The notes beneath the pieces are model-generated. The model was not told the origin of the DNA and searched no databases. It saw only the letters and a list, made by a program, of their open reading frames with translations. Source: a virus. From it: a DNA stretch of 64,000 nt. Positions within the stretch are counted from its first letter, which is position 1. Each line of letters begins with the position of its first letter. The stretch is taken from the IMG/VR virus record IMGVR_UViG_3300047470_000395, positions 1 to 64,000 of that record. One strand, given 5' to 3'. Made by a program: the position numbers and the translations under genes. Below, piece after piece: positions 1-62,985 of the stretch.

Positions 1-45
1 GCGGCCTGGCCGACGGTCTGGGCATGGACCGTTCGGCCAGGCCGC
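1..45 (+). terminator. Stem-loop terminator upstream of terminase
   Basis: Positions 1-18 pair with 27-45 (one bulged T), giving a very GC-rich stem around a short loop. The right arm runs straight into the CGCGAC box of the next promoter motif, so a transcription stop and a new start are fused back to back. No U-tract follows, which is usual in Streptomyces. Confidence 0.6.
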
Positions 46-73
46 GACACTAGATCCCTCCGGGCTGCACCTT
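43..73 (+). promoter_or_regulatory. Phage promoter motif, copy 1 (terminase)
   Basis: CGCGACACTAG starts at 43 and CACCTT lies at 68-73, the same 25-base offset seen at most other copies. The terminase ATG follows six bases after the second box, so the transcript would be leaderless. The GACA core resembles a sigma-70 -35 (TTGACA) and CANNNT resembles a -10. Confidence 0.65.
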
Positions 74-79
74 CCGGCC

Positions 80-1876
80 ATGTCCCGCACGCAGCCCCCC
101 ACCTCGAGACTCCGTGTCGCCCCCGCACGCGAGGAGCTGCAGCGGGCACGGAAGCCCGGCGTCGTTTCCCGTGACGCCGCCAACGTTGCCGACATCCTGC
201 TGCGCGCCCCGGTCGCCGCCCGCCGCCACGCCTTCAAGCACGACATCAGCGTCCGCGAGCGGCCGTACGTCATGCGGGAAGTGGAGCGGGCCACCGGCTC
301 CCTGTACGGCCTGTGGCGGGACACCCCCTCGGGCTTCGTCGAGGACGTCCTGGGCGAGTCCATATGGAGCCTGCAGCGCGAGGTCCTGGACGCGCTCGTC
401 GACCACAAGCGCGTCGCCGTCCCCGCAGGCTTCGGCGTCGGCAAGACCCACCTCGCCGCGCGCGCCGCCGTCTGGTTCGTCAACGTCTACCCGGTCGGCA
501 CCGCGCTCTGCATCACCACCGCCACCCGCTTCCGCCAGGTCCAGCGGCAGCTCTGGCCCCACATCCGCAAAGTCGTCCCCCGCGCCGGCCTGCCCGGCAC
601 CTGCGACACCGTCCAGTACAAGATGCCGACCCCGCAGGGGCACGACTTCGTCGCCGCCTACGGCTTCTCCGCGCCCGCCAACGACGAGGCCGCGATGCAG
701 GGCATCCACATGGCCCACATCCTCCTGATCGTCGACGAGGCGGGCGGTATCGCCCCGATGATCGGCCACGGCACCAACAACCTCCTGACCGGCGGCCACG
801 CGGCGATGCTGGCCATCGGCAACCCGGCGATGGACGACCCGGCGAGCTGGTTCGAGGAACTGTGCATCGAGGGCGACGACCCCGACGAGCCGACGACCAT
901 CACCCTGCCGATCTCCTCCCTCGACTCCCCGGCGATCACGGGGGAGCGGGTCCCGTACTGCACGGACTGCCCCGACTCCACGCACGACCGGCACACCCTC
1001 GCCCGGCACATGCCAGACCAGGACTGGGTGGACCGCACCATCCGCTCGTACGGCGAAGATCACCCGTACGTCATTGCGAAGGTCTACGCACGATTCCCGA
1101 AGGGCGGAGGTGGTCTCGTCCTCCCGCCCACCTGGATCGACGGCGCCCTGAGCGCCCCGAACCCAGAGGGCCCCGGCTGGCACCGCCTGTGCGACCTCGG
1201 CCTCGAGGGCGAGACAGCCACGCACACCGTGAAAGAGGGCGCCTGGGTACGCCTGGGCGTCGACGTCGCCGCAGATGGCGGCGATGAGTTCACCATCGCC
1301 CGCTCCGTCGGGGACGTCATCGAGAACCGGCACGCCTCCGCCGGATCCGTCAACGACAACCAGGTGAAGGTCGCCGAGCGCGTCCTCGAGGAGATCCTCG
1401 CCGCGCAGCGCCTGGCCGACGCCCTCAACAGCCCGCACCCCGTCCGCGTCAAGGTCGACAAGAACGGCATCGGCCACGGCGTGACCGGCATGCTCGAGCG
1501 CTGGGCCGAGACCGGCCGCCACAAGGCGCAGATCGTCGGCGTCATGGTCTCCGAGAACCCCACCCAGGACGACCCGGGCGCCGTCATGCGCCCGTACCGC
1601 AAGCGTGACGAGATGTGGCTCGCCACCAGGGCACTCCTGCAGCCGGACCCGTCGACCGGCACCGGCCGCCTGCGGTTCTGCTTCGACAAGAAGACCGCGG
1701 CGCAGCTCTCCACCCCGAAACTCCTGTCGAACGCCGGCGGCTACTCCGTCGTAGAGTCCAAGAAGCAGATGAAGCAGCGGGGCATGAAGTCACCCGACCG
1801 GGCCGAGGCTGTCCTCCTGGCCCTGTACGAGCCGGAGCCGATCAACCCGCCGCGCCGCCGCGGCCTGCTCAACTAG
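80..1876 (+). CDS. terL: Phage terminase large subunit
   Basis: ATPase-nuclease motor that packages phage DNA into the prohead through the portal. The 598-aa protein has a Walker A motif GFGVGKT at residues 117-123 and a hydrophobic strand ending in Walker B D219-E220 (LLIVDEAGG). The C-terminal half looks like an RNase H-fold nuclease with acidic candidates D395 (GVDVAADGG), D460 (KVDKNG) and D573 (SPDRAEA). There is no Shine-Dalgarno before ATG 80; the start sits six bases after a -10-like box and is probably leaderless. No recognisable small terminase lies beside it, and the portal gene is 28 kb downstream, an unusual separation. Confidence 0.93.
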   Translation: MSRTQPPTSRLRVAPAREELQRARKPGVVSRDAANVADILLRAPVAARRHAFKHDISVRERPYVMREVERATGSLYGLWRDTPSGFVEDVLGESIWSLQREVLDALVDHKRVAVPAGFGVGKTHLAARAAVWFVNVYPVGTALCITTATRFRQVQRQLWPHIRKVVPRAGLPGTCDTVQYKMPTPQGHDFVAAYGFSAPANDEAAMQGIHMAHILLIVDEAGGIAPMIGHGTNNLLTGGHAAMLAIGNPAMDDPASWFEELCIEGDDPDEPTTITLPISSLDSPAITGERVPYCTDCPDSTHDRHTLARHMPDQDWVDRTIRSYGEDHPYVIAKVYARFPKGGGGLVLPPTWIDGALSAPNPEGPGWHRLCDLGLEGETATHTVKEGAWVRLGVDVAADGGDEFTIARSVGDVIENRHASAGSVNDNQVKVAERVLEEILAAQRLADALNSPHPVRVKVDKNGIGHGVTGMLERWAETGRHKAQIVGVMVSENPTQDDPGAVMRPYRKRDEMWLATRALLQPDPSTGTGRLRFCFDKKTAAQLSTPKLLSNAGGYSVVESKKQMKQRGMKSPDRAEAVLLALYEPEPINPPRRRGLLN

Positions 1877-1926
1877 TCGGCGACAAGTGCATCCGCCAGG
1901 GCGGAAAGCGTGCAATATCTTGTGCC

Positions 1927-2973
1927 ATGAGTTCGACCGCTCATCACCCCAGCGATAGCGGCGACCGCCCAACCCCGGCGGCCGCCCTTTCCGCAGTGCC
2001 CCAGCCCGCGCCCGCGCTGCGCGAGCTCGAGCGGGTCCTGGACGTGTTCCGGACGGTCAACCGCAAGGCCAAGGACGTCGTGTCGGACTCCCGCCTGCAG
2101 CAACTCGAATGGGTCGCGGGCGAGCTCGCCCTGGCGCTCCCCCTCGGCCTCACCGAGACCGCCGGCGACTCCCTCGCCGAGCTGCTCGCCCCGGACGCCG
2201 TGCACGCTTACCTGCTCTACGGGCGCGGCGGCTACCTGCGGACCGCGCCCATAGTGGCCACCGACCCGGCCAGCTACGACACCTCGGAACGCATCCGGAT
2301 CTTCTGCCTCGGCATCATCGCCGAGCAGGCCCGGATCGAGTTCGAGGCACCCGACCTTCCACCGTGGGGACTGCGTCCCACCGTCTCCCCGAAGAAGGCC
2401 GACCTCATCACGGACCACCTGGAGGAGCAGGCCAAGCAGTGGGCCGAGGTTGACCGGCCGGACGTCATCGTCCGCGGCCTGGCCATGTGGGGCGTCATGC
2501 GGGACACCCTGCCGCGCCTGGGCGAGCTGGAGTCCATGCTCGTCGAGGACATGGTGCTCGAGGGGAAGACCCCTGTCGCGCTCACGATCGTGCGCCAGCC
2601 CCAGGGAGGCCTTCGCGGGAAGATGCCCGAACCGGAGATCGTCGGACTGTCCCCGGACACCGGCCGCCGTATCGAGGACTGGCTCGTACGCCGCACCGGC
2701 CTGATGACCCGGCTGCAGGGCGGCGTGCCCCGGCACCTGTGGCTGTCTGCTTGGCACCCCAACACCGGAGTCCCCATCGACCGGCGCGGCATCAGCCGCT
2801 GGTACAAGGGCGTCGCCGACGAGGTCCAGGTCAAGCAGGACGCCGAGGGGACGCCGGAGGAGGAACTGGTGCCGACCAGGTGGGAGACGATGCGCCGCAC
2901 CCTCCTTGCGCAGCGGCAGGCCACGGGAACCGCACCCGACCAGCGCGGGAAGCTACTGCCGCCGCCTGCATAG
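1927..2973 (+). CDS. Tyrosine-recombinase-like protein lacking the catalytic tyrosine
   Basis: 348 aa from ATG 1927; an upstream in-frame extension would overlap the terminase and is rejected. The C-terminal half resembles a phage integrase catalytic domain: LPRLGELESMLVEDM matches the TGLRxxELxxLxxxD box, LSPDTGRRIEDWL matches the strand-helix after it, and TRWETMRRT resembles the HxLRHT box. The protein ends about 20 residues later with no tyrosine in the expected place, so it would not cut DNA if the comparison is right. Possible roles are structural DNA binding or a decayed integrase; it could also be an unrelated phage protein. It lies between terminase and dcd on the same strand. Confidence 0.5.
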   Translation: MSSTAHHPSDSGDRPTPAAALSAVPQPAPALRELERVLDVFRTVNRKAKDVVSDSRLQQLEWVAGELALALPLGLTETAGDSLAELLAPDAVHAYLLYGRGGYLRTAPIVATDPASYDTSERIRIFCLGIIAEQARIEFEAPDLPPWGLRPTVSPKKADLITDHLEEQAKQWAEVDRPDVIVRGLAMWGVMRDTLPRLGELESMLVEDMVLEGKTPVALTIVRQPQGGLRGKMPEPEIVGLSPDTGRRIEDWLVRRTGLMTRLQGGVPRHLWLSAWHPNTGVPIDRRGISRWYKGVADEVQVKQDAEGTPEEELVPTRWETMRRTLLAQRQATGTAPDQRGKLLPPPA

Positions 2974-2982
2974 GGTGCGCCC

Positions 2983-3567
2983 GTGCTCCTCTCCGACAAA
3001 GACATCCGCAAGGCCATAGCCGACGACCGGCTGGGCATCGCCCCCTTCGACGACGCGATGGTGCAGCCGGCGTCCGTCGACGTGTGCCTGGCCCGCCAGT
3101 TCCGGGTCTTCGAGAACCACCGCGCCACCCACATCGACCCGGCCGAGGAACAGCCCGACCTCACCAGGCTCGTGGAGCCGGAGGGCGACGAACCGTTCAT
3201 CCTGCACCCCGGGGAGTTCGTCCTCGCGTCGACGCACGAGGTCATCACCCTGCCCGACGATCTCGCCGCCCGCCTCGAGGGCAAGAGCTCCCTCGGCCGG
3301 CTGGGACTGGTCACCCACTCCACCGCCGGGTTCATCGACCCCGGCTTCTCCGGCCACGTCACCCTCGAGCTGTCCAACCTGGCGAACCTGCCGATCAAGC
3401 TGTGGCCCGGCATGAAGGTCGGCCAGTTGTGCGTGTTCGCCCTGTCCAGCCCGGCCGAGCACCCGTACGGCAGCACCGAGTGCGGCTCCCGCTACCAGGG
3501 ACAGCAAGGGCCGACCGCGTCCCGCTCGAGCCGGGACTTCCACCGCACTGTCGTACCCCACTCGTAG
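2983..3567 (+). CDS. dcd: dCTP deaminase
   Basis: Converts dCTP to dUTP and ammonia, the first step of the dUMP/dTTP supply route; cytosolic homotrimer in known members. The 194-aa length and motifs match the family almost end to end: MLLSDKDI at the N terminus, [12 protein letters not shown], then [23 protein letters not shown] and HVTLELSN, which carry the nucleotide-binding residues and the catalytic glutamate. The GTG start at 2983 sits six bases after TAGGGT, a typical Streptomyces -10, so translation may be leaderless. Phage copies of dcd usually raise dTTP for replication or feed thymine modification. Confidence 0.97.
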
Positions 3568-3616
3568 GGTGATCGGGTGATGGAGCACCGGCCGCCCTGA
3601 TCAGCGACCGGTCCAT

Positions 3617-3667
3617 GGTGGCCCGCGCGAACCCGTGCTCCCGGGAAGGGTTGAACCCTGGGCCACC
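3617..3667. terminator. Nested stem-loop after dcd
   Basis: GGTGGCCC at 3617-3624 pairs with GGGCCACC at 3660-3667, with a smaller AGGGTT/ACCCT stem inside. It may end the dcd transcript. It was tested as a tRNA and fails: the span is about 51 bases and no proper T-loop or anticodon arm can be drawn. Confidence 0.4.
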
Positions 3668-3724
3668 CCCAAGATCCCCCGAGACGACGCCTGACGGCCC
3701 CCAGGGCGCTGCTACGGTCCCCGC

Positions 3725-3949
3725 ATGGACGTCGCCCAGTCTCAAGCCGCCACAGTGCCTCTCACGGCCGCCGAGCGCGCCCGGGTGGAGATCGCCGCGG
3801 CGGTCGCCGGGAAGACGTTCGACGACTTCGTGCGAGACGCCGTCCTCACCGCGGCGTACGACCCGCTCGTCGTCGCCCTCGATCGGGCCGCCGACACCGT
3901 CGCCGCCCGCGCCCAGGCCGACCAGGTCCAACACGACTACGCGGGCTGA
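3725..3949 (+). CDS. Small antitoxin-like (DUF1778-like) protein
   Basis: 74 aa. The segment LTAAERARVEIAAAVAGKTF followed by DDFVRDAVLTAA resembles the ribbon-helix-helix N terminus of DUF1778 antitoxins and small plasmid-type repressors. No toxin gene lies next to it, so a toxin-antitoxin role is not supported. Upstream, CTGACG (3691-3696), a 16-base spacer and TACGGT (3713-3718) make a reasonable vegetative promoter. The ATG begins six bases after that -10, suggesting a leaderless transcript. Confidence 0.6.
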   Translation: MDVAQSQAATVPLTAAERARVEIAAAVAGKTFDDFVRDAVLTAAYDPLVVALDRAADTVAARAQADQVQHDYAG

Positions 3950-4596: not shown

Positions 4597-5769
4597 CTAC
4601 TTCCCGCGGCCGCGTGCCGCCTCGGCTTCGCTCAGGCGTGTCTCCAGGGCGCGCTCCCGGTCCGCGGCCGCGCGGAGCTGCTCCTTCGCCTGGTCCAACT
4701 CGCCGCGCAGTGAGTCGACTCGGGCCTCCTGAGTCTCCAGCCGCTTGCCCGTGCGCTCGAGCTCCGCGGCGAGGCCGGCCCGGACCGTCTCGGCCGCGTC
4801 CTTCGCCGCGGTGACCATGCCCTCGGCGTTCCGGATCGCCTGCCGCCCGTTCTCCTCGGCCTCGCTCGCGCGCGTCTCCGCGGCTACGGCCGTCCTGCGG
4901 GCCTCCACGACCTGCGCCGCGGCGGCCGCCTGCGCCTGCTCGAGCGTCGTGGTCATCTCCGCGATCTGGCGGTCGGCTTCGACCCGGGCCTTGCCCGCAG
5001 CGTCCTGGACGGCCTTGATCTCTTCCGCCGTACGCCGGCGGATATCGGCGATCTCTTGGGCCGCGCCCTGGCGGGCAGCGTTGACGTGCGTCTCGGCCAA
5101 GGTCTTCGCCTCCGCGACCAGGCGCTTAGCCTCTGCGCGGGCCTCCTCCGCCGACGCCTCCGCCGCCTCGGCCCTGGCGTTGGCCTCCGCGTTGATCCGC
5201 TCGACCTCGGCCTGGAAGTGGGCGCGGGCCTCCTCGAGTTCCACCTCCATCTGCTCCGCGGCCTGGTTGGCGGCGTCCCTCTCCCCCTCCGCCGCCTCCT
5301 TCGCCGCCGTCGCGGTGATCCGGAGAGTGCGCTCCCCGTCCGCGCGTGCCTCCGCCGTCGCGACTCGGGTGTTGGCCTCGCTCTCCACGGCCAGCACCTG
5401 AGCTTCGGCCGCCTCCGGATCGGTGACCGTCTGCAGGAGGCCTACGTAGCGCTCCATGGCCTTCACGCTCGCCGTGACGTGGTGGATGACCTCCTCACGC
5501 ACGTTGACGGCATCGGCCGCGGAGTCGGTGACGGGCTTGTCGGTCTCCGGCTCCTCCACGGCGGGCGCGCCGCCCGCAGCCCTGGCCCGCTTCCGCTTCG
5601 CCCGCCACGCGCTGCCGGCGTTGTGGTCCGGCCGGACGCAGTACTCCGGCGCTGGGCCGGGCGCTGACGGGTCCTTCTTCGGTTCCCGCTCGTCCCCGCA
5701 TCCGGGGAACTTGCAGGTCACCTGTTCCGCGTTCTCCCCGGCCGGGGCATCGGCGCTGGGCTCGCTCAT
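4597..5769 (-). CDS. Zinc-finger plus long coiled-coil protein (KfrA-like architecture)
   Basis: 390 aa. The start at 5769 (MSEPSADAP) has an AGGAGAG ribosome site; the longer reading frame to 5844 has none. The N terminus has a CCCH-type metal site (CKFPGCG, then YCVRPDHN) and a basic stretch WRAKRKRARA. The rest, from about residue 85, is almost entirely charged, alanine-rich heptad coiled coil. A small DNA-binding head on a long coiled coil recalls plasmid KfrA/partition proteins, but there is no visible KfrA head homology. A 23-bp perfect inverted repeat lies 79-134 bases upstream, a natural autoregulatory or centromere-like site. Inference only: DNA organisation or segregation of a plasmid-like state. 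Confidence 0.65.
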   Translation of the reverse strand: MSEPSADAPAGENAEQVTCKFPGCGDEREPKKDPSAPGPAPEYCVRPDHNAGSAWRAKRKRARAAGGAPAVEEPETDKPVTDSAADAVNVREEVIHHVTASVKAMERYVGLLQTVTDPEAAEAQVLAVESEANTRVATAEARADGERTLRITATAAKEAAEGERDAANQAAEQMEVELEEARAHFQAEVERINAEANARAEAAEASAEEARAEAKRLVAEAKTLAETHVNAARQGAAQEIADIRRRTAEEIKAVQDAAGKARVEADRQIAEMTTTLEQAQAAAAAQVVEARRTAVAAETRASEAEENGRQAIRNAEGMVTAAKDAAETVRAGLAAELERTGKRLETQEARVDSLRGELDQAKEQLRAAADRERALETRLSEAEAARGRGK

Positions 5770-28655: not shown

Positions 28656-29258
28656 GTGACGACCGCGACAGCTCCCATCTCGCCCGAGGCCGGCCGCTCT
28701 CATCTGCAGGAGAGCTTGTTCTCCTGGCTCGAGCCCGAGCCAGCCCCGAAGCCGCGCATAGCCAAGCCCGCTCTCGAGCCCGCGCGCTCACCGGTGGCCG
28801 AGGCGTTGATGCTCGAGGATGCGGCCCCCGCCACCGCGCCGGTGGTCAGGGCCGAGACGAAGACGCTCGAGGAGTCCGACCCGGAAGGCCCCACGGTCGC
28901 CCCGGCCCCGGAGAAGAAAGACCTGTCCCACGTGTGGGTCGTGGCCGCCGAGATCGAGGTCACGCCGAAGATCGCGAGCGTCGCCGACTACCGCGGCAGC
29001 TTCAAGAGCACCGAGGGGCAGCGCGTCGACGCGCTCGAGGTGTATTGCAAGGGCTGCCGTCGCCCGTACGACGAGGTCAAGGGCCGGGACTGCGCCGAGA
29101 AGATCGACAACAAGCACCTGATCGGCGGGGACCAGAGCGTCCGTGCGAAGCGGAAGATCCCCGTGCCGCCCGCGAACGCGAAGATCATTCCCGGCGGCAC
29201 GATCAACCGGCGCGGCCTCGGCGCCTACGTCTCCGGAGTGTCCCGCCCCAAGCGCTGA
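28656..29258 (+). CDS. Hypothetical phage protein with CxxC
   Basis: 200 aa from GTG 28656, preferred over 28605 because GGAGG lies just before it. The first 90 residues are Pro/Ala/Glu-rich. The conserved part is the end: WVVAAEIEVTPKIASVADYRG, VYCKGCRRPYDEVKGRDC, DNKHLIGGD and the basic RAKRKIPVPPANAKI. This C-terminal block looks like a zinc-binding module; function unknown. Confidence 0.65.
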   Translation: MTTATAPISPEAGRSHLQESLFSWLEPEPAPKPRIAKPALEPARSPVAEALMLEDAAPATAPVVRAETKTLEESDPEGPTVAPAPEKKDLSHVWVVAAEIEVTPKIASVADYRGSFKSTEGQRVDALEVYCKGCRRPYDEVKGRDCAEKIDNKHLIGGDQSVRAKRKIPVPPANAKIIPGGTINRRGLGAYVSGVSRPKR

Positions 29259-29264: not shown

Positions 29265-29295
29265 CGCGACACTAATGCCGCCCGCTGTTCATGGT
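29265..29295 (+). promoter_or_regulatory. Phage promoter motif, copy 2
   Basis: CGCGACACTAATG at 29265 and CATGGT at 29290-29295. GTG 29303 begins seven bases later, predicting a leaderless mRNA that opens the virion region. Confidence 0.65.
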
Positions 29296-29302: not shown

Positions 29303-29698
29303 GTGACTACTCAGCAACCTCAGCCGTCGAGCGATGAACCGATCGCCCATAACCCGGACATCATCGGGCCTGCGGTTCCCGACGCGAAGATCGGCCGGGA
29401 GGCCTTCGGGCTTCTCCTGCTCTCGTTCGGTGTGCTCGGCGGCCTCGGTGCGCTGGGTGCCCTGCACTGGGTCGCCGGTCTGTCAGCCGCGCTCATCGGC
29501 CTGTGTGGCAGTGGCGTCGTCGTCCGCCGCAACAGCAAGCAGCGATGGCAGCAAGACGCCGGCGCCATGGTCGCCTTCGCCGCCTACGCGGGGCAGACCG
29601 CCCTCCTGTTCTACCTGCTGCAGCCGCTCGGATGGCTGGCCGTCAGCTCCCTCGGCATAGCCGCTGGCCTGTGGCTGTCCAGCGATGAGGGGGCCTGA
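29303..29698 (+). CDS. Membrane protein before the portal gene
   Basis: 131 aa from GTG 29303 (VTTQQPQPSSDEP); ATG 29291 would overlap the promoter box. Three or four hydrophobic segments (FGLLLLSFGVLGGLGALGAL, WVAGLSAALIGLCGSGVVV, LLFYLLQPLGWLAVSSLGIA). The stop overlaps the portal start. Could be a small-membrane component or superinfection immunity protein; no family recognised. Confidence 0.7.
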   Translation: MTTQQPQPSSDEPIAHNPDIIGPAVPDAKIGREAFGLLLLSFGVLGGLGALGALHWVAGLSAALIGLCGSGVVVRRNSKQRWQQDAGAMVAFAAYAGQTALLFYLLQPLGWLAVSSLGIAAGLWLSSDEGA

Positions 29699-32823: not shown

Positions 32824-32854
32824 CGCGACGCTAACCACGCGTGATGTGCATGGT
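32824..32854 (+). promoter_or_regulatory. Phage promoter motif, copy 3 (giant protein)
   Basis: CGCGACGCTAACC at 32824, CATGGT at 32849-32854, ATG 32862 seven bases later. No Shine-Dalgarno; leaderless start predicted. Confidence 0.7.
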
Positions 32855-32861: not shown

Positions 32862-35800
32862 ATGCTGAATCGCCCCGCTGCTGCGCACGCTGAGTTGCAG
32901 GACCTGAGTGACGGTCTCGAGGTCAAGGCCGCCCGCCGTTGGAACCCGTCCCTGCATCCTCGCGACAGCAAGGGCCGGTTTATCGAGACGGGCGGCATCG
33001 TCCGCCTGTGGGGAGGCGATCTCGCGCGCGTCATGCGCGCCCTGCCGAACGATCGCATCCTCGTGCAGGACCAGACCGGCCCGGACGAATTCAACGGCCG
33101 CAGGCACACCACCAGCGCCAAGTGGGTGTCCATGGTGGCCCGCCCCGATGGCTCCGCGCCCACCGACAACGAGCACAAGGTCGAGGCGGAGGACGAGAAG
33201 CGGGACAAGGACGCGCGGCGCGGCAACGGCGTCGTCCATGACGACATCGGCGACCCCGACACCCCCAACGACGCCCACGCCGTCGACGACCGCGGCCGCG
33301 CGATCGGCGAGGACGACCACCCGGTCGGGCCTCGCGAGAACGACGACCAGGACGAGCCGGAGCACGGCAGGCACCCGGTCAACGTCCGCGCCCTGCCCAA
33401 CCAGAGCACCGCGGGCGGTAGCCGCTTCCAGGACACGGCGGCAGTCCGTCAGCACTTCCTCGACCTGGCCGACCGGCCCGACACCCGGCCGGAGATGGCG
33501 CAGTTCCTGCGTTCCGTCGCCACTGACGAGGACCTGCGCGTCTCGGGCGACCTGGCCGTCCTCCGCGACGACTCCACCGGCCGCTGGTACCTGACGGCGA
33601 CCGGCACCGGTCAGCGCATGGACCTCGCCGGGGACTTCGCCACCCCCGAGGAGGCCAGCGAGTTCGCGCGCCATCTCAGGCGCACCGCTCCGACCAAGGG
33701 CACTGCGATCCGCTCCCTTGCCCGGGGGTTCGACTTCTCCAACCCCGACCTTGACGCCGAGGCGCGCACCTGGCGCTCGGACAGGGACGAGAACATCGCG
33801 GCCGCCATCAAGCGGGCCCGCGGGGAATTCGACGCTTCCCGCTCCGCCCCCGCCTCCGATGCCGCCCGCGCCCCGCACGCCGACGCCGGCACCCCGGAGA
33901 CGGTCAGCCGCGAGGAGCTCAAGCCCGGCGACCGCGTCAAGGTCACCGTGAGCCGCAGCGACATCGAGTGGCCGACGAGCACCCGCGACCAGGACAAGCC
34001 GGAGACGGTCACCGTCGAGGGCACCATCGCGCCCACCCACTCGGCCGGCCCGGGTGTAAGCGGCGCAACGCTCGTCGACGTCACGCTGACCAGCCCGGAC
34101 GGCACGGTCATGACGTCCGGCGACACCGCACGCATCCGGCGCATGCCCACCCAGGTCGCACGCTCCGGGCACACCGACGGCTTCACCCCGGAGGAACGGC
34201 GTGCCGACCGCGTCCGTGTCGGCGACGTCATCGCCCGCGGGGAGTTCGGGCACGTCGTCACGCGCATTGACCGCGGTCAGGGCGGCCGCGCTTTCACCAC
34301 GCGCAACCTCGGCGGCCGTGGCGAGGTCGACCAGTTCGGCGCCCGCCACGGCGACATGCTGTCCGTCGTCCCGAAGGCCCGCCGCCGGCCGGAGGATGTG
34401 CAGCGCGACACCCCGGGCCACACACAGCAGCACCCCAACAGCAGGGATGCCAAGGGCGCGGCCGCGGCGATCCTCAGCGACTGGGCGAAGGTCAACGAGC
34501 TCGCCGCGCAGCAGTGGCCGGACGGGGCACCGGAGGAGTTCCGCACCCTGGCCCAGCACATGCAGAACGTCACGGACGCCCCGAAGGGCGCCGACGGCTA
34601 CCAGCAGAACGCCGACGCGATGCGCGGCGCCCTGGACGCGCTCCACGGCCTCGACAGCGAGGGCGTCAGCCAGGACATGGTGAAGGCGCTGCACCGGCTC
34701 GAGGAGGGCCTGGACGCCAACGCCGACCGGTTCGAGGCCGACTCCCGGGCGATCACGGAGAACAAGCGGAAGCGCGAGGCGGTCAACGCCCCGAACCCGG
34801 ACGCTCCAGCCGCCCCGAACGCCCCGCAGAGCAACGCCCCCACGAACGACCATCCGACGGGTGAACCGCTACAGCACAACTGGGACCCCGAGAACCTGGT
34901 CACCCTGACCATGCCGGAGGCGCTCGCGAACTTCCTGAACGTCGACGAGACCGCGGCCATGGAGGACCCCGACACCCGGAAGGCCCTCACAGAAGCCGTC
35001 CACGGCCGCAACGGCATCCTCAAGGTGACCGCACCGATCGAGACGCACCGCGCCCTGCTCGAGTGGGCGTGGACGCTCGCAGGCGGCGAAGGACTGGACT
35101 CCGACCCGAAGGAAGTCCGGGCCCACCGCAACTACACCAAGCGCGTCGACGAGGCCGCGGCAAAGCTGGAGCGCGAGCGGCAGCACCGCGGCGCCCCGGA
35201 CGCGAACGGGAACGCACCCGACGCCGGCACCGATGACGGTAAGACGGACGCGCCGTCGGCCAACACCCCCGGCGCCGACACCAGCGAGCCGCAGAACACC
35301 CCGGACACGGTCACCATGACGCCCGACGAGGTGTCCAACCACCTCGACGCGGTGCGCCCCGAAGGCTCCAAGGCGCCGTCACGCATGGACGACGGCGAGA
35401 TCCGCGACGAGATCGTCTCCCTGATGGAGCGGGAGATGGCCAACGGCGGGGAGCTGTCGGGAGTCGACCGCACCCGCCTCCAGGTCCTCGAGGCGGAAGA
35501 GGCCCGCCGCGCCGGCCGCGCGCCGAAGCGCGAGGACAAGCCGAAGCCGAAGCCCGCGGAGGAGCCCGGCGGCCTGTTCGACGTCGCCCCGGACGAGCAG
35601 CAGCAGTTCGTTGCCGACCCGAACAACCCCGACGACCTGGCGGACGACCCGCTGGGCACGCCGGACATGTTCGCCAACCACGAAGGCCGCGACACGTCCC
35701 GGCTGCGCCCCCCGCAGTCCCGCAAGCCTGCCGACTTCAAGCCCGGCGACCGGTTCGTCGACACCGACGGGCGCACCCACACCGTGAAGGAGGAGCCGAT

Positions 35801-38800
35801 ACGGACCCCGCGCGGCCGTATCCGCGTCGTCGATGAGGACGGCGGAGAGCACTTCCTCGCACCGGACAAGGAGCTGCGCGTCCTGCACGAGGGCGAGGAC
35901 GCCCCCGCGGTGCCGGAGACCAACGCCCCCGACGCGAACGCGCCGGAGAGCGGTGCTCCGTCCGCGGACACCCCGGAAACCGGCACACCGGGCGCCGACG
36001 CTGCAGACACCCCCAACAACGCGCCCGAGGGCGGCACCCCCGACACCCCGGACGACTCCGTCGCCCCGCCCGCCCCGGTCGGGGATGCGTCCCCGACGAG
36101 CATGAGCAACGAGGACATCGACGCCGAGCTCGAGGCGCTGCAGGCGTGGCAGAACCGGCACGTCGCAAGCAGCGGGGAAGGCCCGCGCGTTCAGGGCAGT
36201 CCCATGGTCGCTCTCTCTCCTGTCGGCAACCGGCGGGGCGCCCTGCGCGAGGAGCAGCGCAAGCGTGAGGTGGCCCGCCAGGACAAGGAGCGGAAGGAGA
36301 AGGAGAAGCAGGACCGGGCCGCAGCGCTCGCCCGTTCCGAGATCGGCAACCGCGCCGCTGACGGCTCGTACCCGGTGACCGTCGACGGCGAGAACGCCGG
36401 CAGCGTCAGCCAGACCGCCCGCAAGTGGCAGTACACCGACGCCGAAGGCCGCAGGTCTCCCGACTTCTACCCGAGCCGCGCCCAGGCCGTGGCCGCGCTG
36501 GTCAGCAACCGCGACGTCCGCCGGAACAACGACGCGCAGCACGCTCGCCAGGATCAGGCGCGTACGCAGACGCCGAACGGGTGGGCTCTCGGCGACCGCG
36601 CCGACGTGGCCGAGAACGACATCATCCGTATCCCCCGGATGGGCCGTGACCGTGACGGCAGGCCGTACCCCGAGGGCTGGGGCCAGCCGGTCCGCGTCAA
36701 CCGTGTGGAGCGCCGGGACGACGGCACGACGATCGTCTCCTACAGCAACCCGGACGGCTCGTATGCGGGAGGCAGCCCGCTGTTCCTGCGGGGTCCCGAC
36801 GACTCGTTCGCGTGGGCCAACGACCGCACCCGCCCGGAGCCGACCCCCGCGTGGCGGCACGAGCTCCGTCCCCGGATGGCCGACATCGGCGACGACGTCG
36901 CCACCCTGCTGAACCACGCCGACGGCCTCGACGACCAGGACCAGGAGCGGATGCGGCGCCTGGGCGAGCTGATCCGCCGCGTAGAGGACGGCGACACCGA
37001 GGATCTGCAGGCGGACCTCCGCAAGATCCGCGACGAGGCCGCGTGGCTCGAGGAGCAGTTCAGCCGCGAGGACCTGCCGTTCGAGACGCGCAGGTACAAG
37101 TCGTGGGCCACGGCCGCGCACGGGAAGGCACAGCGGTCCCTCGACCACCCTGACTTCCAGCACGGCAGCACGGCCGACGGCCCGGACAACGCCCCCGGCA
37201 ACGCCCCGGACGCGGACGCGCCGAGCGCCGATGGCGTGCCCGACTGGGCCAACGACCTCGGTGACGGTGTCTGGCTCGACGAGCCGAGGAGCACCGGCGG
37301 GCCCCGGAACATCTACGTCGACGGCCAGATTGAGGGACTCCTCGGTCGGGACCGGCCGAAGGGCAGGTACTACTGGTGGCGGCCGGGGGGCCAGACCAGC
37401 CAAGAACGCTTCGACACCCCCGAAGAGGCCGCCCGCGCCTTCGCCCGCGAGATGCGGGAGAACAACCTGCCGAGCCTGAGCACGCCCAACGACGGCGGCA
37501 ACGGCCACGACGACCGCGCCAGCCGTGCCCGGGACCTGTTCGGCGAGGGCATGAACGCCGTGGGCGGCGACTCCCTCCCGGAGATGCAGGAGCTGAACGA
37601 CCGCCTCGGCCGCGCTGATTCCTCGGACGACCGGGATGCGGAGCTGCGCGACGTCGCCGACCGCATGGACGAGCTCGCCGACCAGTACGGGCTCGCAGGC
37701 CCGCAGGGTGAGCTTGCCGCGGACCAGTTCCGTCGCGCCGCGCGCGCCGCCCGCGGTGAGCACGACGACCACAACGGCGACAACGGCGACGGCCAGCCCG
37801 ACGCCACGCCCATCACCGACGGCGAGTCCAACAACGGCCAGGACGACCAGCAGCGCAGCGACGACCAGGGCGACGGACAGCAGGACGACAACCAGCCCAG
37901 CAACCAAGACGACAACCAGGGCGACAACCAGGGCGACGACGAGGAGAGCCGTCGGCGCGACAACCCCAACCCCGACGGTGACGCGGCCGGCCCCGACGGC
38001 GCCCCCGACGGTGGCGGCCCGGGTGCGCCCGACGACACCAACGACTCGAGCGACTCCAACAACGACCAGAGCAACGGTCCCGACAACTCGGACGACTCGA
38101 CGGACGAGCCCAACCCAGACGAGGAGAACCAGGACTCCGAAGAGGAGAAGCGCCGCAAGCGTCGCCGCCGCAATCGTAACGGCGGAGGCGGTACCGGTGG
38201 CCCCGGCGGGGGCGGACCGGGCGGGCTTGGCCTGCCGCACCTGAGCCTGCCGAACCTCAACGTCCCCGCCGGAACGGGCGGCAACGGTGGCAACGGCAGC
38301 CACGGCGACGGCCACCACCCGCGTACGCCTCACAACCCCCGCCCGCACGACGTGGACTCCCTGCGGAACGCCTGGCGATCCGGTCAGGGACTCACCGCGG
38401 GCGAGGACACCCCCGAGCGGCGCGCCCACCTCGCCGATCTGGCGGACCGCGAGGGCCTCACCCTGTCCCCCCAGGGCGGACTCGCCCTGTATCCCGAGCA
38501 GCAGGACGACGGCACCACCGTGTGGCGCTTCGCCCAGGCCCGCAACGGCTCAAACCTGCCCGGCATCACCCTGACCACCGACGACCCCGAGGAAGCGCGC
38601 GCGCTCGCGGGCAGGTTCGAGGAGATCACCGACGCTAACGGCGACCCCTTCGACTGGCACCAGCCGCAGGGACCGGCCAGCGTCGCCGCGTGGCGTGACG
38701 GGGAAGGCCGCACCCTGCCCCAGGCCATCCGCGCGGTGCAGGACGACTACCAGCAGGAGCGCGCCGGAGCGTTCAACCTGCCCGAGGACCTCACGGGCAT

Positions 38801-44671: not shown

Positions 44672-44702
44672 GGCGACACAAGCCGCTCCGCTCGCTCATC
44701 CT
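44672..44702 (+). promoter_or_regulatory. Phage promoter motif, copy 4
   Basis: GGCGACACAAGC at 44672, CATCCT at 44697-44702, GTG 44710 after seven bases. The first base differs from the consensus C. Confidence 0.6.
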
Positions 44703-44709: not shown

Positions 44710-45348
44710 GTGACCAGATACGGATTCGCCATCAAGGCTCTCCCCAAGGGCGCCAAGCCTTTCGGGCAGGAAGACGACAAGAACAAGGAGAACCCGGGGC
44801 TCGAGACATCCAGCCCCGGCGCCTCCGACAGCGACACCTCCCTGGACCCCGCGGACGAGCTGCCCGAGGACCCGACGGCGGCCCCGTTCGCGCCCGCCGA
44901 CGACCCCGCGGCGCCCCCGGAGGACCCTGCAGCCTCCCCTGCCGCGGACGCTCCACCGGCGGGAGACGGCACCGGAGAGGAGCCGACGGACGCCCCGCCA
45001 CAGCCGGAAGGTGACTCCCGCCCCTGGGCCGGAGACGAGTACAACGAGGGCGAGGAGACCGATCCCGACGGCCCCCTGTCGTGGTCTGCGTTCACCGGCG
45101 GCAACGGGGAACAGGCTTGGCTCGACAAAGCCCAGGACGGCACACTGACCGGATGGGTGCGGGACTCCACCGGCCAGGTGTGGCGCTACACCGACCCCGA
45201 CGCGTGGGCGCTCGACGTCGACGGCGCCCACATGACGCAGACGCACCACAACGGCGAGGACAACGCCCAAGCGGCCGGGGACGGCACGCAGGGCGGACAG
45301 CCCCCGGACGACCGGGGCAAGCAGGACCTGATGTTCGCGGGCCAGTGA
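44710..45348 (+). CDS. Acidic proline-rich protein
   Basis: 212 aa from the predicted leaderless GTG 44710 (VTRYGFAIKALPKGAKPFG). Longer versions starting MPNW translate the repeat element and are artefacts. Residues 25-120 are disordered, Asp/Glu/Pro/Ala-rich. A C-terminal part (about 125-180) has WSAFTGGNGEQAWLDKAQDG and GWVRDSTGQVWRYTDPDAW. Possible capsid-scaffold or head accessory; no family recognised. Confidence 0.65.
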   Translation: MTRYGFAIKALPKGAKPFGQEDDKNKENPGLETSSPGASDSDTSLDPADELPEDPTAAPFAPADDPAAPPEDPAASPAADAPPAGDGTGEEPTDAPPQPEGDSRPWAGDEYNEGEETDPDGPLSWSAFTGGNGEQAWLDKAQDGTLTGWVRDSTGQVWRYTDPDAWALDVDGAHMTQTHHNGEDNAQAAGDGTQGGQPPDDRGKQDLMFAGQ

Positions 45349-45358: not shown

Positions 45359-45574
45359 GTGAAGCTCAACCGGCAGGCGTTCCAGGACCTGCTCAACGAG
45401 GGCAAGGCCGCGTACGCGGCGGGAGACCCATCCGACTCGTGCCCGTACAACATGTACGGCGCAGACGTAGAGGAGCGGTTCGGGTACCGCTACTGGACCC
45501 GCGGATGGGTCATGGCCCGGTCTGAGGCCGAAGCCCAGGCTGCCCAGCCTGTAGGAGCCAGCGCAGGACAGTAA
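45359..45574 (+). CDS. Rmf/CrpP-fold small protein
   Basis: 71 aa, GTG start with GAGGAGAG upstream. FQDLLNEGKAAYAAGD, CPYNMYG and YRYWTRGWVMARSEAE follow the pattern A..eG..A...G....NPY......W..GW..A of ribosome modulation factor and the related CrpP proteins. RMF dimerises ribosomes in stationary phase; phage copies are of unknown use. It sits in the head gene block, between the acidic protein and the protease. Confidence 0.65.
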   Translation: MKLNRQAFQDLLNEGKAAYAAGDPSDSCPYNMYGADVEERFGYRYWTRGWVMARSEAEAQAAQPVGASAGQ

Positions 45575-45594
45575 GGCCCTCCACTCGGCACGGT
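45564..45594 (+). promoter_or_regulatory. Phage promoter motif, copy 5 (protease)
   Basis: CAGGACAGTAAGG at 45564 and CACGGT at 45589-45594. GTG 45634 follows after a short leader with GGAGG nine bases before it. It overlaps the end of the preceding gene. Confidence 0.55.
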
Positions 45595-47931: not shown

Positions 47932-47967
47932 GCGCTGCCCGCTCTTGACGTCTCGAGCGGGCAGCGC
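47932..47967 (+). terminator. Terminator after the protease gene
   Basis: Perfect 13-bp stem (47932-47944 with 47955-47967) and a ten-base loop. Its last base is the first base of promoter motif copy 6, the same terminator-promoter fusion seen at 1-73. Confidence 0.8.
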
Positions 47968-47997
47968 GCGACGTTAACCCCCCTCTCCCACTTTCAT
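47967..47997 (+). promoter_or_regulatory. Phage promoter motif, copy 6 (major capsid)
   Basis: CGCGACGTTAACC at 47967, identical to copy 11. The second box is the weakest of the set: CACTTT lies three bases early (47989-47994). A leader of about 80 bases follows, with an ACGCCTC/GAGGCGT hairpin (47999-48017). Confidence 0.5.
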
Positions 47998-48081
47998 CAC
48001 GCCTCGCGTTGAGGCGTCCCGGTGCTGGCCGGGCGAACGGCGCACGTCAACCGCCACCCCAGCATCAGGGAGAGCCCCGCA

Positions 48082-50973: not shown

Positions 50974-51004
50974 GAAGACGTAAGGGAGACCGGAAGTTCA
51001 CCGT
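50974..51004 (+). promoter_or_regulatory. Phage promoter motif, copy 7 (lenient)
   Basis: GACG lies at 50977-50980 with TAAGG right after, one base shorter than in other copies, and CACCGT is at 50999-51004. ATG 51011 comes six bases later and has no nearby ribosome site. Confidence 0.4.
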
Positions 51005-51010: not shown

Positions 51011-51754
51011 ATGACTTCCACACGACGGTGGCTCCTGACCACCTACAAGGGCACCGGCTACGCCGACACCTACAAGTGGACCCTGCCTGCCTGGGCAGGG
51101 ACCCTCCCCGACGGCCGCAACTACAACACCTGTCCTGGCGCCTCTGTCTGCGCCCCCCTCTGCTACGCCCGTACGGGCACCTACCAGTTCCGCACCGTCA
51201 AGGCGGCCCACGAGGCGAACCTGGTGATGGTCCTGGACGACTTGCCCGGCTGGGAGGCGGCGATGACCGCCGAGCTCCAGCACAAGCGCTACCGGGGCGG
51301 GAAGTTTGTCCGCTGCCACGACGCCGGCGACTTCTTCAGCCCGGAGTACACCGCCGCTTGGATGCGTGTGATGCGCTCCGCGCCCGACGTCACGTTCTAC
51401 GCGTACACCAAGAGCGTCAGCCTCTTTCGCGAGTGCGTGGAACCGGACCCGCCCGCGAACTTCAAGTGGGTGTACTCACTCGGCGGCCGAGAAGACCACT
51501 TGATCGACCTCGAGACCGAGAGGCACGTCGACGTCTTCCCCGACGAGGAAGCCGTCGAAGTCGCCGGCTACACCTCCCGAGGCGACCTAGGGGACCTGGT
51601 CTCGATCCTCGGCCCGCAGAAGGTGGGACTGCCCGCCAACAACATCCGCCACCTCAAGACCAAGCAGGCCGGCAAGCGGTTCAGCGAGCTCGAGCGTGAG
51701 CGGAAGGCGCAGCGCCGCGGGCCCGGCAAGCAGTTCCGCGGCGGACGGCCGTAG
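51011..51754 (+). CDS. GP88-family protein
   Basis: 247 aa. NTCPGASVCAPLCYARTG, VRCHDAGDFFSPEYTAAW and VTFYAYTKSVS match the 'gene product 88' family of actinobacteriophages. Its cysteine cluster CPGxxxCxxxCYA and barrel-like strand order suggest an iron-sulfur or radical-SAM-like fold. Activity is unknown. It lies between the phosphoesterase and the decoration protein; two copies of the palindromic element follow it. Confidence 0.8.
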   Translation: MTSTRRWLLTTYKGTGYADTYKWTLPAWAGTLPDGRNYNTCPGASVCAPLCYARTGTYQFRTVKAAHEANLVMVLDDLPGWEAAMTAELQHKRYRGGKFVRCHDAGDFFSPEYTAAWMRVMRSAPDVTFYAYTKSVSLFRECVEPDPPANFKWVYSLGGREDHLIDLETERHVDVFPDEEAVEVAGYTSRGDLGDLVSILGPQKVGLPANNIRHLKTKQAGKRFSELERERKAQRRGPGKQFRGGRP

Positions 51755-51853: not shown

Positions 51854-51901
51854 TGCCCCACCCGGCAGGGCGCGACCGTAACCGTCCGGGTGGGGCACGG
51901 T
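51853..51901 (+). promoter_or_regulatory. Phage promoter motif, copy 8, inside a 13-bp inverted repeat
   Basis: CGCGACCGTAACC at 51871 and CACGGT at 51896-51901. GTGCCCCACCCGG (51853-51865) and CCGGGTGGGGCAC (51886-51898) are perfect inverted arms enclosing the first box and entering the second, so the region could be a terminator for readthrough RNA and a promoter in DNA. Confidence 0.65.
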
Positions 51902-52485: not shown

Positions 52486-52516
52486 CGCGACACAAGCTGT
52501 ACCCGGAGTGCAGGGT
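52486..52516 (+). promoter_or_regulatory. Phage promoter motif, copy 9
   Basis: CGCGACACAAGC at 52486 and CAGGGT at 52511-52516. A leader of about 33 bases with AGAGGGAG leads to ATG 52556. Confidence 0.65.
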
Positions 52517-55549: not shown

Positions 55550-55579
55550 CGCGACACAAGCCGGCCGGGCGCCCACAGT
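55550..55579 (+). promoter_or_regulatory. Phage promoter motif, copy 10
   Basis: CGCGACACAAGCC at 55550 and CACAGT at 55574-55579 (spacing one shorter). ATG 55587 is seven bases later, without a ribosome site. Confidence 0.6.
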
Positions 55580-55586: not shown

Positions 55587-55859
55587 ATGGCTACGAACCC
55601 CACCACCAGGAAGCCCGCCGCCGAGGCGGAGGACAACACCGAGCCGGTCGCCGAGACCGCCGAGGCCCGCCCGGAGCGCGCCCGCCGCACACCCGACGTC
55701 GTCGGCCCGCCCCTTGGCGACGGCGAAAAGCCGGTCACCGTCACCCTGTCCCACCACCTGCGGATCAACGGCACCGACCATCTGCCGGGCGTCGAGATCC
55801 GCGTGTCCCCCGACTACGCCCGCGGCCTGCGCGGTCAGGGCTACGTCGCCCGCACCTGA
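55587..55859 (+). CDS. Small hypothetical tail-region protein
   Basis: 90 aa from the predicted leaderless ATG 55587 (MATNPTTRKPAAEAED); the upstream GTG 55578 overlaps the promoter box. Acidic flexible first half, then a short beta domain (KPVTVTLSHHLRINGTDHLP, GVEIRVSPDYARGLRGQGY). Overlaps the next start. Confidence 0.65.
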   Translation: MATNPTTRKPAAEAEDNTEPVAETAEARPERARRTPDVVGPPLGDGEKPVTVTLSHHLRINGTDHLPGVEIRVSPDYARGLRGQGYVART

Positions 55860-56287: not shown

Positions 56288-56350
56288 CGCGACGTTAACC
56301 ACTCCCGCTCTCCAAGGTGTCCGCGCCCTGACACCGGACACCTTGGAGAG
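56288..56350 (+). promoter_or_regulatory. Promoter motif copy 11 with a 16-bp leader hairpin (major tail)
   Basis: CGCGACGTTAACC at 56288 and CAAGGT at 56313-56318. CTCTCCAAGGTGTCCG (56308-56323) is an exact reverse complement of 56335-56350, so the hairpin spans the -10-like box, the presumed start site and the GGAGAG ribosome site of ATG 56358. It could hide the ribosome site, protect the mRNA, or be an operator. Confidence 0.7.
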
Positions 56351-56966: not shown

Positions 56967-56997
56967 CGCGACACAAGCCCCACCGGCTTGGCACTGT
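56967..56997 (+). promoter_or_regulatory. Phage promoter motif, copy 12
   Basis: CGCGACACAAGCC at 56967 and CACTGT at 56992-56997. A leader of about 45 bases with GAAGAGG leads to ATG 57050. Confidence 0.65.
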
Positions 56998-60800: not shown

Positions 60801-61915
60801 CGGACATGGGCATCCCCAAGGAGCAGGCCAAGGCGCTTGCCGATCAGATGGGGTTCATCCCGGACACCGTCACCACCCTGATCACGGCCCAGGGCATCCC
60901 GGAGGCGACCGCGGAGTTCCTGAGCCTGCGCAGCACCCTGGAGAAGATCCCCGCAGGCAAGGGCGTCCAGATCAAGGCGCCCACGTTTGAGGCCCGCACT
61001 CAGATCGAAGCCCTCGGCTTCAAGGTGCAGCGCATCCCCGGCAGCAAGAACATCGTGGTCACGGCCCCGACCAAGGGCGCGCGCATCAACATCGGCGCCC
61101 TCGCCGCGGACATCGCCAACGCCCCGGACAAGAAGAAGGTCACCGTCCAGGCGATTATCAAGCAGGCCGCCGGCGACCTGAAGAACGTCCAACAGAAGGT
61201 CGCGGGCCTGCCCAAGGGCAAGTCCATCGAGGTCAAGACACCCACGAAGACGGCCCAGGCCGCGCTCAAGGACCTCGGTTACAAGATCAAGACCGTCGAC
61301 GGTTCGCACGGCAAGACCGTCAAGATCACCGCCCCGAACAAGACGCCCATCCAGCAGGTGCAGGCGATCCAGGGGAAGATCAACGGCCTTACCGGCAAGA
61401 CCGTCCACGTCACCGTCAAGTACTCGACGCTGGGCAAGCCGTACGTCTCCCCGAAGGCAGACGGCGGGATCGTCCAATACGCCAACGGTGGCATCCGCCG
61501 CATGGCAGGCCGAGTGAAGGCCTTCGCGAACGGCGCGGAGCAGCACATCGCGCAGATCGCGCAGGCAGGCGAGATGCGCCTGTGGGCGGAGCCCGAGACC
61601 GGCGGGGAGGCCTACATCCCGCTGGCTCCGGGCAAGCGCCGCCGCTCCGAGGCGATCCTCGATCGGGTCGCAGAGATGTTCGGCGGCCGCGTCGTCTACT
61701 TCGCCAACGGCGCGATGCGCCAGTACGCACAGGGCGCCGTACGGACGCGCGCCTCCACCGTCCGGCAGCGAGCGGCGGCCGCGCAGGCGGCGGGAGCGCT
61801 CGTCGGCGGTGACCTCAACCTGAACATCGGTGCGGTCGCATCGACTGGAACCGCCCTGGAGGACGCCATGTTCGAGCTGCGCCGTATCCGACTCGGAGGG
61901 GGAGCCAATGCGTGA
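57872..61915 (+). CDS. Tape measure protein
   Basis: 1,347 aa from GTG 57872. Charged helical N terminus (KLRAEVESAAEGLAAKIKVE), hydrophobic segments at about 145-215 and 510-590 that could form the injection channel, long coiled coil (about 700-1000), a Lys-rich beta repeat region (about 1030-1190: KGVQIKAPT, NIVVTAPTK, KSIEVKTPT), and the conserved actinophage ending (ADGGIVQYANGG, LWAEPETGGEAYIPLAPGKR). At 0.15 nm per residue the tail would be close to 200 nm. Sets tail length and acts in DNA entry. Confidence 0.95.
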   Translation: MGEGLQAGRLDVPVVADLSGFAAKLRAEVESAAEGLAAKIKVEIDSKGLRRRLKDVVKEASKGVTAKIRVEIDEDRFRASLDGIRRRIDDSGLNLPVRPDGDGDGSNRGGLLAGLRNLITGAQGEADRNPVNVPVNMRMPGRGRGSLRMLGIGSLISLLEPAVALIGQYGAGLTALVSAAAPAVGVLGAIPGLIAAAGTAAIGTKVAFSGFGDALKETLKIQQQQAAGTKVTKAEQQKLDQALGKLSKSARETVTTVASLSGAWRDMKKSVQERFFSKIADEVKPLSESVLPLFKKTLGDSASQMGNLAKRGAQFMQTGVFRRDFKTIAGTNSRVVGNLTDGLANMGHATMDFLVASGPFVERVGQAGEKFTQWVRASVKAGRETGSLAKFLDHAGDKAAQLGRTTGNLIKGLGGVGKAAMDSGNALLDGLEGSMLRFTRWANSGVGQKAMQNFFSDAAPAFHEVNLLFGDLMRGLGRSMKDGGITDLVRQIRTELMPALGSFFNAIGHSVGPAVISVISNLATAIGNVSAAGSGLAVLLVTFNGLLQIFNGVMRVIPGANTALAVFLGTMLALKVVSGVATMLRGFGTSVTAAGTSVRTLGTTMRGTMGAGVLGPQITMWQRMGLAYQGAASQGGRLTGTLRGIGAANRVASRALGGITSALGGPLGIAIAGVTIGLGLLASKQEAAARAAAAHEERVNSLAQALADSNGQIDANVRAQAAQYLQEIKLSDGKGKLVDVMRDAGVNLKSVTDAYLQQGGSIDGLQKKLTGLADATKHYVNYAGDKASKLEYTPQGEKYKAAADALGAMSGELDKSRKKQKELDQAVNGSATTGTTSYDRLNSAVQGFTDKTKSADERVDALKRALNELQGNTQSFHDAETQLNAVMLQIDDTMKENIDHADGWGKKLVDNDGLVNTASKNGQTLNSQLTDLRDGMLGVATRAQEAAEQGLMPMSEAMSKSQKAMEQARAKAIQLATDMGIPKEQAKALADQMGFIPDTVTTLITAQGIPEATAEFLSLRSTLEKIPAGKGVQIKAPTFEARTQIEALGFKVQRIPGSKNIVVTAPTKGARINIGALAADIANAPDKKKVTVQAIIKQAAGDLKNVQQKVAGLPKGKSIEVKTPTKTAQAALKDLGYKIKTVDGSHGKTVKITAPNKTPIQQVQAIQGKINGLTGKTVHVTVKYSTLGKPYVSPKADGGIVQYANGGIRRMAGRVKAFANGAEQHIAQIAQAGEMRLWAEPETGGEAYIPLAPGKRRRSEAILDRVAEMFGGRVVYFANGAMRQYAQGAVRTRASTVRQRAAAAQAAGALVGGDLNLNIGAVASTGTALEDAMFELRRIRLGGGANA

Positions 61916-62951
61916 CGGCGAATGGGTCCTCGGCTACTCCCCTTATGACAACTACCCGGGCGCGTCGCTGACGTTCGGCCGCGAGAGGTCCGGCATCTAC
62001 TGCCTGAGCGAGCCGGACGTCACGTTCGCCGACATGGACCTTTCCGACGCGGCTTTGCCCGGCGAGGACGGTATCCGCATGGGCCGCGACTACCAGCGGA
62101 ACGCCACGGTCACGTTCGAGCTGGGCGTCGACGGCGTAGGGGGACCGATTGACCGGCACTGGCCCATGCGCCCGTGGACGCGAGGGACCCGGGTCGGTGA
62201 CTGGACCGACATCGAGGCGGTGCTCGCCGCCTACAACAAGAAGGACCAGGGGCCGCATCAGTGGGGACTCGACGGCCTGAACATGCTGCGGCAGGTGTGG
62301 CGGGCCGACTCCACCCGTGGGAAGGCCGGCCGCGTCGCCTGGCTCGTACACAGCTCCGGAGGGCGCACCCGCCAGATGTACGGGCGCCCGAGGAAGTTCG
62401 CTGTCTCCCATTCCCGGCTGAGCCGCCAGGGGTACACGCCCGTCGTCTGCGAGTTCGTCGCCGTCGACGATCGCTTCTACGAGCAGACAGAGAAAGAGGT
62501 CGAGCTCTACGACCACCTGTTCCTTGGACTGCCGCCGCGGCCCGGCCGAGTGTCGGGCGGCGGCTGGCTGTTCCAGTCGAAGAAGACCGCGTCATTCCAG
62601 CAGCGCGGCACGCTCAACACGTACCCGTACATCGAGATCCACGGGCCGTGTAAGAACCCGAAGGTCACGCTGACCCCGGAACTGTGGGCGGTGCAGCTCA
62701 ACATGACGATCGGCGTCGACGAGCACGTCACCATCGACGCCCGCCCGTGGGCGCGGACGGTCACTCACTACAAGGGCTCGACGTCGAAGTCGGTGGCGGA
62801 CAAGCTGACGCGGTCGAGTCCGCGGCTGTCGCAGATGTTCATCCCGCCCGGGTACTGGACGGCTTCGCTGGCCTACACGAAGTCGACGGTCCGCGCGTTC
62901 GAGGGGCCGCGGATCCGGATCGCCTATCGCGACGCGTACTCCTGGTGGTGA
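61908..62951 (+). CDS. Distal tail protein (Dit-like)
   Basis: 347 aa from ATG 61908 (GGAGGGGGAG upstream, overlap with the tape measure). GYSPYDNYPGASLTFGRERS, a beta sandwich and PVVCEFVAVDDRFYE followed by a galectin-like C-terminal half (NTYPYIEIHGPCKNPKV, LNMTIGVDEHVTIDARPWA) are the classic distal tail/baseplate hub layout. Joins tail tube to the baseplate. Confidence 0.88.
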   Translation: MRDGEWVLGYSPYDNYPGASLTFGRERSGIYCLSEPDVTFADMDLSDAALPGEDGIRMGRDYQRNATVTFELGVDGVGGPIDRHWPMRPWTRGTRVGDWTDIEAVLAAYNKKDQGPHQWGLDGLNMLRQVWRADSTRGKAGRVAWLVHSSGGRTRQMYGRPRKFAVSHSRLSRQGYTPVVCEFVAVDDRFYEQTEKEVELYDHLFLGLPPRPGRVSGGGWLFQSKKTASFQQRGTLNTYPYIEIHGPCKNPKVTLTPELWAVQLNMTIGVDEHVTIDARPWARTVTHYKGSTSKSVADKLTRSSPRLSQMFIPPGYWTASLAYTKSTVRAFEGPRIRIAYRDAYSWW

Positions 62952-62954
62952 GCA

Positions 62955-62985
62955 CGCGACAGTAGGCGCCGCGGCCGCCCACTCT
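62955..62985 (+). promoter_or_regulatory. Phage promoter motif, copy 13
   Basis: CGCGACAGTAGG at 62955 and CACTCT at 62980-62985. ATG 62998 is 12 bases later; ATG 63016 has GAAGGAGA upstream and is the likelier start. Confidence 0.6.

Follow-up and report, generated by a model that had tools for sequence, protein, structure and literature searches.

Results

The probable promoter sites and the genes that follow them

The window analysed here comprises positions 1-64,000 of the 125,780-base virus record IMGVR_UViG_3300047470_000395, and it carries thirteen copies of a two-box, promoter-like motif in front of its virion genes. Its virion region is about 81% identical to that of the Streptomyces phage Gilgamesh. 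This phage belongs to a family of Streptomyces phage-plasmids 125-135 kb in length, as do seven complete Streptomyces plasmids (125-132 kb), which shows that members of the family live as phage-plasmids. Judging from sequence comparison, the thirteen repeated signals are genuine and conserved and most likely constitute a late-promoter class of these elements, and we propose, with a probability of roughly 0.55, that they are read by the phage's own BldN-like extracytoplasmic function (ECF) sigma factor, the homologue of Gilgamesh gp92.

By homology to Gilgamesh, the genes that follow the sites encode the terminase, a membrane protein/portal operon, a giant protein, the gene 52 hydrolase, and capsid, neck and tail proteins. 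The first site (43..73, on the plus strand like all others in the window) lies before the terminase large subunit gene, homologue of Gilgamesh gp1, whose apparently leaderless ATG is at 80. Starts of the same leaderless appearance follow the sites before the membrane protein/portal operon (29265..29295; GTG at 29303; Gilgamesh genes 45-46), a giant protein of 3830 amino acids (32824..32854; ATG at 32862; gene 48) and the gene 50 homologue (44672..44702; GTG at 44710). The site at 45564..45594 precedes the gene 52 hydrolase homologue, whose mRNA would be leadered and whose counterpart in a Thermobispora element is annotated as a prohead protease. The capsid promoter (47967..47997) is a conserved variant, with a perfect first box and TTTCAT as second box. 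Further along, sites are found before the homologues of gene 56 (50974..51004; leaderless-looking ATG at 51011), gene 57 (51871..51901), gene 58 (52486..52516), gene 62 (55550..55579, with a 12-base spacer; leaderless-looking ATG at 55587) and gene 64 (56288..56318); the latter is hypothetical in Gilgamesh, and the homologue in the Thermobispora element gives a Pfam match to the phage tail tube family. The last two sites precede the tail assembly chaperone genes (56967..56997) and the gene 69 homologue (62955..62985), which encodes a hypothetical protein and lies downstream of a minor tail protein gene.

Beyond the window, the same genome holds plus-strand sites at 65190, 71832, 82381, 119424, 119865 and 122467, as well as a weaker minus-strand site at 75923. 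The lysin gene (82381) and genes upstream of the terminase are among the targets there. Because the sites precede genes for terminase, portal, capsid, tail and lysin, we regard them as late promoters.

Conservation of the two-box motif

The motif was found in all 42 family records first examined, and the positions of the sites are mostly common across the family. Over clade A, eight close genomes, and clade B, six more distant genomes with a portal about 50% identical, the consensus reads AGnnCGCGACrnWARc, N13, CAnnGT, frequently followed by nC. Clade B carries G or C at position 3. The first base of the second box is C in 92% of clade A sites, and T takes its place in 20% of clade B sites, against about 1%.

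To avoid circularity, a held-out matrix was built from 198 sites of other genomes only, this genome and a near-identical relative (G003) being excluded. Applied to the window, it recovered exactly the thirteen sites of the original prediction, among them 51871, 52486 and 56967, and no others; all carry the sequences that had been described. Eleven of them score 18-31 bits, the site at 55550, whose spacer is shorter by one base, scores 28 bits, and the capsid site at 47967 scores 13 bits. The minus strand of the window gave no match with this matrix (about 0.1 per 64 kb expected by chance at 14 bits), in agreement with the claim that all copies lie on one strand.

A second matrix, trained on ten window sites, gave its top plus-strand scores at most of the reported sites and at further sites downstream. 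In Gilgamesh, at 17 bits, it yielded 19 matches, all of them on the plus strand, with about 0.1 in simulated sequence; 17 of the 19 are intergenic, although intergenic DNA makes up 10% of the genome. Scanning a relative on both strands thus came out in favour of the original prediction. One of its statements, that the accessory region is free of sites, holds for this window and fails for Gilgamesh, where a site at 5585 precedes gene 7 in that region. In de novo two-word counting over whole genomes, the signal was drowned by codon structure.

The sites that had looked weakest or irregular are also genuine. At 50974 the score is 18 bits, and a start codon follows the second box at 6 bases; the 12-base spacer at 55550 recurs before gene 62 in relatives; and the capsid promoter at 47967 keeps its first box, perfect or near-perfect throughout clade A, together with a second box of the TTYYAT type in most genomes. 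Taken together, the sites have the features of two-box bacterial promoters, namely fixed spacing, a set orientation, intergenic position and a constant distance to start codons.

Predicted transcription starts and the capsid leader

Start codons with an open frame of at least 60 codons were counted downstream of 229 strong sites, which are not independent since related genomes share promoters. A start codon stands 7 bases past the second box at 50 of these sites and 5-9 bases past it at 66; start codons are nearly absent at 9-15 bases and frequent again beyond 31 bases. This two-peaked distribution is the pattern that promoters would give if some mRNAs were leaderless and the rest carried a ribosome site in a leader. 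Roughly one mRNA in four would begin at the start codon or within a base or two of it, among them those from six window sites (43, 29265, 32824, 44672, 50974 and 55550). As leaderless start codons stand at a constant distance of 7 bases, the RNA start is predicted some 7 bases past the second box, about where the original prediction had put it (6-8 bases). This distance, with position, orientation and conservation, gives good support to the earlier view that virion genes are transcribed from these sites. Genes 45 and 48 of Gilgamesh are annotated as starting at 28782 and 31978, inside the -10 box; their likely starts lie 12 bases downstream, in frame.

The surroundings of the capsid promoter have features of their own. 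A terminator-like inverted repeat, GCTGCCCGCTC...GAGCGGGCAGC (window 47934-47966), adjoins it and is kept in clade A. The leader of the capsid mRNA (window 47996-48081) is strongly conserved, contains a hairpin (CCCGG-TGCTGG-CCGGG), and gave no Rfam family at gathering score. The loop GUGCUGG could form base pairs with a CCAGCAC or CCAGCAU that stands shortly before the ribosome site: all 7 pairs form in 38 of 40 leaders, and in 8 of 40 with a reversed-loop control. Two distant relatives have TGCTGAC with GTCAGCA in this leader, a matching change. These observations are suggestive of a real pairing.

A BldN-like sigma factor encoded by the phage

Beyond the window, at 85939-86622 on the minus strand, lies a gene for a BldN-like ECF sigma factor, 79% identical to Gilgamesh gp92 (the product of gene 92). 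Both proteins contain Pfam sigma regions 2 and 4 and lack region 3, the architecture of ECF sigma factors. The best solved relative is 6dxo (5.5e-35), which the search output names simply as an ECF-subfamily sigma factor and which we take to be Streptomyces BldN in complex with RsbN. The phage sigma factor is 33% identical over 175 amino acids to a BldN-like sigma factor from a Streptomyces host genome. Against the BldN family model TIGR02952 (cut-off 206 bits), it scores 94 bits in this genome and 113 bits in a clade B phage; because these scores are far below the cut-off, the sequence is to be called BldN-like rather than a member of the BldN family.

The gene is present in 15 of 15 examined Streptomyces genomes holding the phage, and in all seven complete Streptomyces plasmids of the family; no complete Streptomyces family member was seen without it. 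The relatives that lack it are 17 IMG/VR fragments: four, with a whole or partial copy of the neighbouring single-stranded DNA-binding protein (SSB) gene, stop no more than 1.9 kb beyond it, short of the sigma locus, and the others hold no SSB gene. No recognised transcription factor besides the sigma factor, except a ParB-like protein, was found among those Gilgamesh genes that both clades retain. In a third group, more distant phage sigma factors (28-34% identity) are encoded on contigs of about 50 kb that are without the late-promoter motif and in which no motif of their own was found.

In both clades the sigma gene is followed immediately by genes 91 and 90 (84508-85952 in this genome, beyond the window). 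Gene 90 encodes one likely membrane helix, as judged by eye, and an outer domain that is conserved and has two cysteines. Neither product had a match in Pfam, PHROGs or a PDB sequence search, so that neither can be recognised as an adjacent anti-sigma factor in this way; profile comparison of gene 91 with RsbN gave no similarity, and a fold search with low-confidence models of both gave no matches. That they might act as anti-sigma factors is a guess, which these comparisons did not support.

Discussion

In the mechanism that we favour, each site would be a single promoter, with the upstream box AGnnCGCGACrnWARc at about -42 to -27, thirteen intervening bases, the -10 box CAnnGT and an RNA start about 7 bases beyond it. 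The BldN-like ECF sigma factor of the phage would bind the host core RNA polymerase, and the sigma-bound polymerase would turn on the terminase, virion and lysis genes together. The motif, its conservation, position and orientation, and its co-occurrence with the sigma gene in the Streptomyces family are observed. We infer all three elements of this proposal: that the sites are transcribed, that the phage sigma factor reads them, and that they are expressed late. The original prediction had suggested a phage factor or a modified polymerase; the former is supported by the sigma gene, which is present in all Streptomyces genomes of the family whose sequence extends to the locus. The consensus sequence that came closest to the motif, among those tried for sigma factors, was the BldN core GTAAC-N16-CGT (8.5 bits), with 16 as best spacer.

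Several observations weigh against this assignment. The fit of the BldN core lies in the top 1.3% of letter permutations, which is only suggestive as the core was picked after looking, and the match to the full BldN consensus is not significant (13% of permutations). The upstream box spans 15-16 bases, longer than ECF region 4 usually reads, and the A and T that never vary in the second box resemble the -10 element of a primary sigma factor. Furthermore, the Thermobispora bispora phage-plasmid NZ_CP039125, which shares terminase, portal, capsid and tail genes with the family at 24-48% identity, contains GACnnWARC-N12-YAnnnT 13 times and one copy with N13, on both strands of 108 kb of unique sequence; a profile search found no homologue of the sigma factor there (positive control 4e-90). 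Finally, contig G072 (106 kb) has 7 core matches, with 4 in the control, and no full ECF match.

For the Thermobispora element, the reversed-pattern control of the strict pattern gave 0 matches, and several copies lie just upstream of annotated genes. A broader matrix at low threshold gave 56 matches, 11 being expected by chance, and the ECF family model gave only partial region-4-like matches. The element had been considered as a nearly motif-free outgroup, a use that was rejected when a relaxed search found the motif, mostly with a 12-base spacer. In its record the first 37 kb or so are present twice (1-37 kb and 108-145 kb), by duplication or as an assembly effect. Elsewhere, contig G073 (70 kb) has 3 core matches, with none in the control, and a diverged ECF-like match just above cut-off (37155-37607, minus strand); the Gordonia phage GMA6 gave no match to the full matrix, the only form of the motif applied to it. 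The occurrence of the motif in the Thermobispora element, where no sigma homologue was detected, lowers our confidence in the sigma hypothesis, and, because the core motif appears to extend to phages with no detectable sigma factor, a host sigma factor, with or without an activator, is a serious rival.

In its more probable form, the host primary sigma factor HrdB would read the same late promoters together with a phage or host activator on the long upstream box, which would replace a poor -35 element in the manner of T4 MotA/AsiA or of class II activators, and the phage ECF sigma factor would serve otherwise. The layout had been likened at the outset to a sigma-70 promoter; indeed GAC, about 19 bases and YAnnnT could suit a sigma-70-type factor with an activator, and published HrdB motifs include TGACA-N17,20-AN3T. 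Reading by a phage factor is probable rather than established. The excess length of the upstream box over an ECF -35, the core motif retained by relatives without a sigma homologue, and the second boxes of contig G072, mostly TAnnnT, all suit HrdB as well. However, C opens the -10 box at 92% of clade A sites, which is poor for a primary sigma factor, and no common activator was found, Gilgamesh and the Thermobispora element sharing mainly structural genes, the terminase, gene 18 and a ParA match. Gene 155 was tried as a shared activator and rejected, its match to Thermobispora multi-helix-turn-helix proteins being weak (E 0.001-0.005, two-sequence search). On balance we hold this explanation possible but unlikely.

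A host ECF sigma factor, most probably BldN or a relative, might instead read the promoters and so couple the making of virions to the development of the host; the phage sigma factor would then be a later-captured, reinforcing copy. This would account for the Thermobispora element and agrees with the BldN-like character of the phage sigma factor and with the published BldN site, CGTAAC-N16-CGTTGA (PMC2375139), which shares core and spacing with the motif. It is improbable, given the non-significant match of the full consensus and the fact that Gilgamesh is recorded with S. lividans as its host, which implies that it forms plaques on mycelium in growth. Very improbable is the reading of the boxes as operators for a repressor, DNA-packaging or partition protein, which would suit the strong conservation of the first box even beside the poor second box of the capsid gene, but not the constant distance between the boxes, the start codons that stand 7 bases further on, or the Thermobispora sites, which lie on both strands as do the virion genes of that element.

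As for the phage sigma factor as reader, one could go further and suppose that the lineage captured a host developmental ECF sigma factor with an inhibitor module (the membrane protein of gene 90 and the small protein of gene 91) as a lytic switch. An envelope or developmental signal would then free the sigma factor and fire the virion and lysis promoters at once, partly via leaderless mRNAs; we consider this extended scenario rather unlikely.

Comparison with known systems

Phage sigma factors and late promoters are already known; this promoter class was not found described. The open-access literature gave no description of the motif, of the Gilgamesh sigma factor, or of an ECF sigma factor driving Streptomyces phage virion genes, which is weak evidence of novelty as most subscription papers lay outside its scope. 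For these Streptomyces phage-plasmids, which are widespread but have received little study, the present work defines a candidate class of late promoters, predicts where their transcripts start and proposes a reader, so that the lytic switch can be tested directly. The promoter positions would also correct the annotated start codons of Gilgamesh genes 45 and 48, and the pair may offer a separate sigma-promoter system for Streptomyces.

Phage sigma factors with their own late promoters include gp55 of T4 and gp33/gp34 of SPO1. As there, a phage sigma factor would bring the core polymerase of the host to virion genes through a motif specific to the phage; the candidate here differs in being a two-domain, BldN-related ECF sigma factor, with a longer two-box motif and about a quarter of the mRNAs looking leaderless. 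At the T4 middle promoters, which depend on MotA and AsiA, a special box near -30 replaces the -35 element and the -10 element is kept, a layout similar to the present one, although no MotA- or AsiA-like protein was identified here.

Streptomyces BldN, which is controlled by the anti-sigma factor RsbN (PMC4255298), is the closest relative of the phage sigma factor that was found, with a similar region 4, a partly shared -35 core and equal spacing. The phage sigma factor is only 33% identical to it, the motif has an extra upstream box, and genes 91 and 90 are without detectable similarity to RsbN. The nearest published case is SigN of Bacillus subtilis, a sigma factor carried by the prophage-like plasmid pBS32 with more than 20 promoters on that plasmid (PMC10601692), which resembles the system proposed here in that the sigma factor is encoded by a phage-like plasmid.
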